Below, one piece after another: positions 13,635 through 16,023 of a stretch of 64,000 nucleotides of DNA. Origin of the DNA: an uncultured Fodinibius sp. (GTDB lineage: Bacteria > Bacteroidota > Rhodothermia > Balneolales > Balneolaceae). Made by a program: the position numbers and the translations under genes. The notes under the pieces are model-generated. The model saw only the letters and a list, made by a program, of their open reading frames with translations, was not told the origin of the DNA and did not search any database. The DNA lies in contig CAJXMJ010000002.1 in NCBI GenBank assembly GCA_913056455.1, forward strand, positions 496,001 to 560,000. The letters run 5' to 3'. Numbering within the stretch: the first letter of the stretch is position 1; the number at the start of each line of letters is the position of its first letter.

Positions 13635-14087
13635 ATGGCTGACCTAACAAAGCAACTAAGCACCGAGAGGGGAAATGTTGCCATCATATCGGTCTTTGTG
13701 GTTCTGGCCCTGTTCATTATTGTCACAACGCATTATGGAATAAAAACACTCGCTTCGGTCCGGGCCTATGTAGGAGCCGAAGGCCAATGGACCAAAGCCC
13801 AAAAAGAAGCTACAAACCTGCTTATTCAATACAGCGTTAAAGAACAGCTGGAGTTATACAACCAGTTTCAGAAAGAGCTGGAACTGCACAAGGCCTTTAA
13901 AGATGCCCGGCAAACACTGAGCTCTGCGAATCCTGATCACGAGATGGCATTCAGGAAATTTCAAACGGCTGATCTAGATCCCAACGATATTAATCTGATC
14001 ATATGGATTTCTCAATTCCACGATGAAATTTCCTGCCTACGGCAGCTACTTTCCAGACAAAACGTAATTACAACTAAAGCATTCTAA
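13635..14087 (+). CDS. Orphan membrane-anchored sensor domain, possibly truncated
   Basis: The 150-residue product has one membrane helix (about 17-37) and then an extracytoplasmic helical region with SVRAYVGAEGQWTKAQKEA and LDPNDINLIIW. I recognise this pattern as the N-terminal sensor of many membrane GGDEF and histidine-kinase proteins. Here it stops after the motif, with no second helix and no output domain, and the last 20 residues diverge. It is therefore a stand-alone sensor subunit or the remnant of a broken sensor gene. It ends about 40 bases before the RsbQ-like gene on the same strand, so co-transcription is likely. Confidence 0.65.
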   Translation: MADLTKQLSTERGNVAIISVFVVLALFIIVTTHYGIKTLASVRAYVGAEGQWTKAQKEATNLLIQYSVKEQLELYNQFQKELELHKAFKDARQTLSSANPDHEMAFRKFQTADLDPNDINLIIWISQFHDEISCLRQLLSRQNVITTKAF

Positions 14088-14128: not shown

Positions 14129-14947
14129 ATGTCCCAAAAAATTTTCGAAAGAAATAATGTTACTATTACAGGGGAGGGAGAAATACCGATCCTGTTTGCC
14201 CATGGCTTTGGTTGTGACCAACATATGTGGCGATTTATAACCCCGGCATTCAAAGAGAAGTTCAAAGTTATTCTTTTTGATTATGTGGGGTTCGGCAACT
14301 CTGATACCAGCTCTTATAAAACTGAGCGATATAACACCCTCCATGGTTATGTACAGGATGTTTTAGAGGTTATTGATGCTTTAGAACATAATGATGTAAT
14401 ATTCGCAGGACATTCGGTAAGTTCAATTATCGGTGCCCTGGCATCTATTAAGGAACCTCAAAAGTTTAAGCACCTGATTATGATTGGTCCCTCTCCCTGC
14501 TATCTCAATGATCCTCCTGAATATTATGGAGGATATGACCGTAGCACTATCGAGGAACTACTGCAACTAATGCAAAAAAATTATATCGGCTGGGCGGAAT
14601 TTTTCGCCCCTGAAGTCATGAAAAATGAGGATAAACCTCAATTGACAGAGGAACTCGAGGAAAGTTTTTGCTCTACCGATCCCGTTATAGCTCATGAATT
14701 TGCTAAAGCCACTTTCCTTTCTGATAATCGGGAAGATCTCCCTAAAATAGACGTACCTGTACTTATCATTCAGTGCGAAAATGATTCTATAGCACCACTG
14801 CGAGTTGGTAAATATGTGCATTCTCAAATCAAAGATAGCACGCTGGAAGTACTTCCGGCGAATGGCCACTGTCCGCATATGTCTGATCCGGAATTGACAA
14901 TTGAAGCGATCGATAATTACCTGAACCAAGACTTAACAAGATCATGA
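14129..14947 (+). CDS. rsbQ: RsbQ-like alpha/beta hydrolase
   Basis: Close in sequence to Bacillus RsbQ, the hydrolase needed for energy-stress activation of the PAS phosphatase RsbP; plant KAI2/D14 receptors share this fold. Recognisable blocks are GFGCDQHMW, FDYVGFGNSD, GPSPCYLNDPPEYYGG and the C-terminal NGHCPHMS. The triad is Ser96 (GHSVS), Asp219 and His247, the numbering I recall for the Bacillus protein. The gene overlaps the next one by four bases (ATGA). That gene encodes a PAS histidine kinase, so this probably acts as a small-molecule sensor or hydrolase feeding the kinase. Confidence 0.9.
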   Translation: MSQKIFERNNVTITGEGEIPILFAHGFGCDQHMWRFITPAFKEKFKVILFDYVGFGNSDTSSYKTERYNTLHGYVQDVLEVIDALEHNDVIFAGHSVSSIIGALASIKEPQKFKHLIMIGPSPCYLNDPPEYYGGYDRSTIEELLQLMQKNYIGWAEFFAPEVMKNEDKPQLTEELEESFCSTDPVIAHEFAKATFLSDNREDLPKIDVPVLIIQCENDSIAPLRVGKYVHSQIKDSTLEVLPANGHCPHMSDPELTIEAIDNYLNQDLTRS

Positions 14948-16023
14948 ACTCTGTTTTAAATAAAATACCCTGCGGTTACCTAGAATTTAATGATGAAGGA
15001 ATACTGACACAGGTAAACAACCGCACTTGTAATATATTCAACTATACAGAGAAGCAATTAATTAATAATCATATTGAAACAATTCTGACACCGGGTGCCA
15101 AAATTTTTTATCAGACCCACCTGTTTCCTATGTTAAAAATGAAAAAACAGGTGAATGAAATTTATTTGACCTTTCAATCTAAAGAGGGAGAAAATATCCC
15201 TGTATTGATTAATGCCGAGCGGATTGTAGATAACGAAGAGCCAATAAATCGCTGTATTGTTCTTCAAATGGAGCGTCGCTCCGAATACGAAGACCGAATT
15301 CTTTATGACAAAAAGAAAGCAGAAAAAAAGAGCGACAAAAAGGAAAAGCTTCTTTCTATGATGTCACATGAACTGCGTAGTCCATTAAATGTAATTCTCG
15401 GGATGGTCGATTTATTATCTAATGAGATTAATGGTAACGCCGGGAGTGAAGAGCGTAAATATCTGGGTCTTATAAAAAATGCCGGTAAAGATCTGGCTAG
15501 ATTGGCTGATGACATTCTGAACTTTGCCAAACTTGAATCTGGTTATTTTGAAGTCAACAACGAAGTAGTTCTACTTGAGGAGGTTCTCATGAATTCCTTT
15601 ATGATGGCTATGCACGAAGCTGAAGACAAAGGAATCGAACTAACCAGAAGTGAAAAAACCGAGATTAAAGTGTTTGCCGACAAAGACCGACTTAAACAAG
15701 TCATCATGAACTTATTAACAAATGCCGTCAAATACACTGAGCCAGGGGGCGAAGTGATCCTAACTACGGAAAAAGAGGGCCAATATGCTAAAATACATGT
15801 AAAAGATACTGGCATTGGAATCCCCGCCGAAAAAATTGATCAAATCTTCCAGCCTTTTAACCAAATGGATAATGATGGCTCAGGCTCAAGTAAAAGTGGA
15901 TTTGGGCTGGGACTCCCAATCAGTAAAAAACTTGTAGCCCTAATGGAAGGTAACTTAACAGTGAACAGTGAAGAAGGTGAAGGATCTATTTTTTCCGTCA
16001 AGATTCCACTGGCAAAGAACTAA
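14944..16023 (+). CDS. Cytosolic PAS-domain histidine kinase, RsbQ partner
   Basis: Soluble sensor kinase with no membrane segment. A PAS domain covers residues 5-110 and contains the segment IFYQTHLFPMLKM seen in PAS domains of sigma-B-type regulators. A short charged coil (115-135) leads to a HisKA domain with His142 in SHELRSPLN. The HATPase_c domain has NLLTNAVKYT, DTGIGIP and GFGLGLPISK. No receiver domain or adjacent response regulator is present, so the output partner is elsewhere. The overlap with the RsbQ-like gene implies translational coupling. In Bacillus the same hydrolase pairs with a PAS-PP2C phosphatase, so the output module has been swapped here. Confidence 0.92.
   Translation: MNSVLNKIPCGYLEFNDEGILTQVNNRTCNIFNYTEKQLINNHIETILTPGAKIFYQTHLFPMLKMKKQVNEIYLTFQSKEGENIPVLINAERIVDNEEPINRCIVLQMERRSEYEDRILYDKKKAEKKSDKKEKLLSMMSHELRSPLNVILGMVDLLSNEINGNAGSEERKYLGLIKNAGKDLARLADDILNFAKLESGYFEVNNEVVLLEEVLMNSFMMAMHEAEDKGIELTRSEKTEIKVFADKDRLKQVIMNLLTNAVKYTEPGGEVILTTEKEGQYAKIHVKDTGIGIPAEKIDQIFQPFNQMDNDGSGSSKSGFGLGLPISKKLVALMEGNLTVNSEEGEGSIFSVKIPLAKN

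Follow-up and report, generated by a model that had tools for sequence, protein, structure and literature searches.

The window, that is, the complete stretch of 64,000 nucleotides analysed from an uncultured Fodinibius sp., contains a gene for an RsbQ-type hydrolase and, directly downstream on the same strand, a gene for a PAS-type histidine kinase (Table 1). The first-pass annotation had described an ATGA overlap of the two genes, the RsbQ triad Ser96/Asp219/His247 in the hydrolase, and a cytosolic partner with the domain order PAS-HisKA-HATPase. The overlap is exact according to the ORF coordinates, all three triad residues stand at these positions, and PAS_9, HisKA and HATPase_c were matched in this order in a protein that has no membrane-type hydrophobic stretch and is predicted to be soluble (highest 19-residue Kyte-Doolittle mean, 1.05).

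Table 1. Features of the hydrolase-kinase locus (positions refer to the window)
Feature	Coordinates	Strand	Remarks
150-aa ORF, most likely the remaining N-terminal part of a membrane-sensor PAS-HisKA_2 kinase	13635-14087	+	linked to the module by position only
RsbQ-type alpha/beta hydrolase, 272 aa	14129..14947	+	triad S96, D219, H247; pocket/gate F27, V97, Y136, F196
ATGA overlap, hydrolase stop/kinase start	14944..14947	+	stop TGA 14945-14947, start ATG 14944-14946
PAS-HisKA-HATPase kinase ORF, 359 aa	14944-16023	+	
RsbP-type PAS domain, kinase residues 1-109	14944..15270	+	nine class positions
Charged linker, kinase residues 110-132 (23 residues)	15271..15339	+	stands where the published class has its coiled-coil
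Kinase core, HisKA 133-200 and HATPase_c 246-357	15340..16023	+	

The best relative of the hydrolase among solved structures is RsbQ of B. subtilis (1wom), which matches residues 4-266 (263 residues) with an E value of 5.4e-105, followed by Olei00960 (3qvm), whereas structures of the KAI2/D14 type match less well (E 1.4e-59 and weaker). The kinship with KAI2/D14 plant receptors that had been noted at first pass thus holds at the level of the hydrolase subfamily, but the window protein is clearly nearer to RsbQ and is an RsbQ-class hydrolase with an intact triad. Across 91 loci, the triad and the adjacent V97 are invariant (S96, V97, D219 and H247 in 91/91), and the pocket is nearly so, with F27 present in 87 and F196 in 90; position 136 is F in 88 loci and Y in three. 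These residue counts, like the tree described below, leave out L018, L021, L023, L043, L068 and L096, in which a downstream partner is absent. The exchange of the RsbQ gate residue F136 for Tyr was seen in the window, L120/L024, L121/L008, L132 and L133, and represents a lineage-specific change of the pocket gate.

The text of Nadezhdin, Brody and Price (2011; PMC3183031) describes 45 adjacent pairs of RsbQ and an RsbP-type PAS, with a PPM phosphatase, a histidine kinase (in Gram negatives) or a diguanylate cyclase as the output of the PAS protein, a coiled-coil (21 residues or more) linking PAS to output in 36 of the 45, nine PAS positions diagnostic of the class, and a DIT motif that is absent from its set. 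In the window, the RsbP-type PAS directly adjoins RsbQ and is the most N-terminal domain of its protein, and it carries all nine class residues (C10, L13, L48, K53, F55, Y56, H59, E72 and P86, corresponding to C, L, L, basic 53, aromatic 55/56, H/Y 59, E72 and P86), numbered identically to those of Bacillus mojavensis RsbP, where the matching of letters to positions is our interpretation of the text of PMC3183031 apart from its figure. A DIT motif was sought at the end of the window PAS and was not found. The output is of the histidine kinase type (HisKA plus HATPase_c), with a complete set of H-, N-, G1-, F- and G2-type catalytic motifs, and His142 of the H-box is the presumed phospho-acceptor. 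As a separate observation, 14 of 92 partner proteins, L041, L045 and L054 among them, gave a hit to a loose D[IV]T pattern close to where the PAS domain ends, suggesting that the absence of DIT is not universal in this wider partner set, unlike in the 2011 set.

A search for such pairs across phyla had been proposed. A census was compiled from 80 loci of named genomes and a search of the phylum of the window; it comprises 98 hydrolases, of which 97 are distinct, counting that of the window. L007, a duplicate of L024, was dropped from the 91-row set, in which further duplicates between unnamed and named genomes may be present. PAS neighbours were found by profile, and in GC-rich genomes the longest ORF of some PAS genes begins inside the hydrolase gene. 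An RsbP-type PAS gene is the next gene downstream, on the same strand and within 600 bases, in 91 of the 97 distinct loci; it lies upstream in two, is absent in three and is obscured by a contig end in one (L021), so that a PAS of the same class adjoins the hydrolase in 93/97. The pairing of hydrolase and PAS is thus far above chance. In both upstream cases, which are from Vreelandella, a PAS-GGDEF-EAL gene is situated just ahead of RsbQ in reversed order (L068, 2202-3941; L096, 2186-3943). An adjoining RsbP-type PAS gene was not found in L018, L023 and L043 (about 1.5 kb on each side in L018 and L023), and an RsbQ-class hydrolase can therefore occur alone. The window genome has five further hydrolase loci, all distantly related, and none of them has an ORF that matches the PAS profile. 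No fused RsbQ-PAS ORF was found among the loci examined, so that there is no Rosetta-stone case. A plasmid search yielded 72 records with relatives of the hydrolase; of two surroundings examined, one places it beside an annotated PAS kinase and the other beside a PAS-GGDEF protein.

The outputs of the 91 partners, assigned according to their similarity to four references, two kinases and two phosphatases, comprise 44 kinases, 15 hybrid kinases, 28 PP2C phosphatases and four proteins without an output domain in the same ORF; the loci were chosen by similarity to the window hydrolase, and distant branches and GGDEF outputs are therefore under-sampled. A Pfam search covered 23 partner or near-partner proteins, including those of the window and L104, and L015, labelled a kinase, showed HATPase_c without HisKA. 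The rows are named to eight phyla, the phylum being taken from the row name, which 14 of the 91 rows (the window included) lack. PP2C outputs occur in all 27 Actinomycetota rows and in Bacillus mojavensis, and rows named Actinomycetota or Bacillota contain not one of the 59 kinase outputs (15 of them hybrid); the output class follows lineage. In L069, a partner without an output domain is followed by a separate HisKA-HATPase ORF. In three Paenibacillaceae loci, two from Paenibacillus and one from Cohnella, the gene after RsbQ encodes a PAS protein that stands alone and has no output domain (L029, 4836-5420; L040, 4788-5309; L042, 2618-2971); the next genes differ, and the proteins of L029 and L040 bear a long charged tail.

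The first-pass annotation would have been contradicted by hydrolases that do not co-occur with the PAS kinase, and the opposite was found. With thresholds of E <=1e-30 for the hydrolase and E <=1e-10 for the PAS, 16 of 296 genomes of the phylum of the window contain the hydrolase and 13 the PAS, and all 13 are among the 16 (Fisher p 3e-20, with genomes treated as independent). The three other hydrolase genomes comprise two with a weaker adjoining PAS (L014, L017) and one with a solitary hydrolase (L018). Within the order, the hydrolase is present in 11 of 128 genomes in a total of 13 copies, and a PAS kinase follows in 12/12 copies that are not cut by a contig end, including that of G327, in which the hydrolase gene is interrupted by a stop; for the 13th copy, in G104, the PAS begins another contig, as expected from a contig break. 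The spacing of the two genes, measured in ten relative pairs and the window, with G104 and the interrupted G327 hydrolase set aside, is -4 in 5/11 pairs and between -4 and +9 in all 11.

Pairwise distances of hydrolases and PAS domains are correlated (r 0.766, n=91; maximum of 0.149 in 1000 shuffles), although shared ancestry alone also raises this value. In a hydrolase tree built with a quick method, the window groups with G211 and with Aliifodinibius salipaludis, the closest named relative (93% in the hydrolase), within a group of 20 rows (SH-aLRT 96) that belong to several phyla, and the hydrolase of G274, from the same genus as the window, is placed elsewhere. The gene is missing from 8 of 12 genomes of this genus, and the distribution of the hydrolase is patchy, by loss or transfer.

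Taken together, the class-defining residues, the homology and the coupling of the genes support the reading of the pair as an RsbQ-PAS sensing module that drives a histidine kinase and not a PP2C phosphatase, and because the module has already been defined in PMC3183031, the window pair belongs to a class already known. We consider it highly likely that it is the published module in its histidine-kinase form, in which the ligand-loaded hydrolase would alter the PAS kinase and phosphate would be passed to an unlinked regulator, and the hydrolase is very probably a small-molecule sensor that controls the kinase. The first-pass proposal of a receptor that drives a phosphorelay and not the sigma-B switch is thus supported by homology, coupling and residues, but it is not new, as the text of PMC3183031 had already proposed a ligand-receptor model in 2011, and a 2025 eLife article (PMC12143880) restates in its text the interpretation of a module coupled to kinases and cyclases across phyla and describes an AlphaFold2 model of 2RsbP/2RsbQ. 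For B. subtilis, the text of PMC3183031 reports that RsbQ touches the PAS in two-hybrid and pull-down experiments, that the contact is lost in F55A, that the F-alpha surface is needed for RsbQ binding, and that signalling needs direct contact as well as the catalytic triad (section 11). From this, we infer that the two window proteins are in contact and that the triad is required.

On this basis, the hydrolase would bind, and may slowly turn over, a small molecule in its conserved pocket; it would contact the kinase at its N-terminal PAS dimer, mainly through the F-alpha helix of the PAS (the side of F55 and H59); the resulting change would reach the HisKA-HATPase core by way of the linker helix and alter autokinase activity; and a response regulator whose gene lies elsewhere in the genome would receive the phosphate. 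The window genome has 22 HisKA matches and 43 receiver-domain matches (42 above the cut-off), none of the latter beside the kinase. No receiver gene was found next to the kinase at the window locus with a small profile of low sensitivity built from three hybrid kinases, nor with the same profile at the loci of the order, with the exception of a receiver encoded on the opposite strand in L137. In L032, L033 and L034, the gene immediately after the kinase, on the same strand, encodes a small receiver.

One step of this scheme has a serious competitor. In model 1 of Nadezhdin et al., the PAS is the true sensor and the hydrolase hands its product to the PAS pocket, whereas in model 2 the hydrolase is the receptor; the two differ at this step only, and the module is kept in both. 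The invariance of the catalytic triad, its requirement for signalling in B. subtilis according to section 11 of PMC3183031, and the frequent binding of ligands by PAS domains would suit model 1, and we regard it as a real possibility. Nevertheless, conservation of the triad is compatible with both models, and the F-alpha surface is conserved and, in the text of the same paper, needed for RsbQ binding in B. subtilis.

A more radical alternative would be that the genes merely share an operon, the hydrolase being a metabolic esterase and the PAS kinase sensing something unrelated. ATGA overlaps are frequent in bacterial operons, and the three homologous hydrolases that stand alone would agree with it, but a PAS of the same class at nearly all distinct loci, in rows named to eight phyla, the lack of any PAS (E 1e-10) without a hydrolase in the 296 genomes, and the RsbQ-PAS contact reported for B. 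subtilis in the text of PMC3183031 make it very improbable. Equally hard to uphold is the idea that the pair feeds a SpoIIE/STAS partner switch via one of the six SpoIIE-type (PF07228) phosphatases of the genome, since none of the six genes is inside the window and the kinase carries a complete HisKA/HATPase core.

Upstream of the pair, the 150-aa ORF resembles the N-terminus of an intact sensor-PAS-HisKA_2 kinase of 582 aa that is encoded in G151, the nearest relative (69.6% over 138 aa). Roughly 1.53 kb of the G151 sequence is missing from the window at a point between about 14034 and 14043, and loss by deletion is therefore the most likely origin of the shortened window copy. HisKA_2 kinases upstream of the hydrolase were also found at both copies of G211 and in G297, so that such a kinase, 72-274 bp away and in the same orientation, is present in 4/6 evaluable relatives of the family and in 0/3 in the rest of the order, a count that leaves out G335, G327 and G337, whose contigs end. 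It was not found in G274, G331, the two copies of G377 or within 1.4 kb upstream of G104, and an upstream search of the 98 loci (76 with more than 2.5 kb) gave matches only at G151 (twice) and G211. The upstream kinases occur in two diverged RsbQ lineages. It might be imagined that the Balneolaceae RsbQ receptor serves a two-kinase cassette that splits or cross-checks the signal, and that in the window genome the catalytic half of the second kinase has been lost, but we think this unlikely.

The near-invariant pocket in 91 loci, whose named rows span eight phyla and which have several outputs, would fit one common and widespread metabolite as the ligand, and the kinase-type pairs, with a phosphorelay as readout, could offer a simple reporter for finding the ligand of RsbQ. 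The window pair extends the known module to one more group of salt-loving bacteria and leaves the concept unchanged; a search of the running text of PMC3183031, as distinct from its species-labelled figures, found neither Bacteroidetes nor Salinibacter.

Compared with the 2011 module with histidine-kinase output, the window pair is alike in the order of hydrolase and then PAS, the N-terminal position of the PAS, the nine class residues, the lack of a DIT motif and a kinase output in a Gram-negative lineage, and it differs in that its host is a member of the Balneolaceae. With RsbQ-RsbP of B. subtilis it has in common the hydrolase and the PAS domain, but the output there is a PP2C/PPM phosphatase in the sigma-B switch, whereas it is a HisKA kinase in the window. 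The KAI2/D14 plant receptors, members of the same subfamily although more distant from the window hydrolase than RsbQ, have F-box/SMXL proteins as partners, whereas the partner of the window hydrolase is a PAS kinase.
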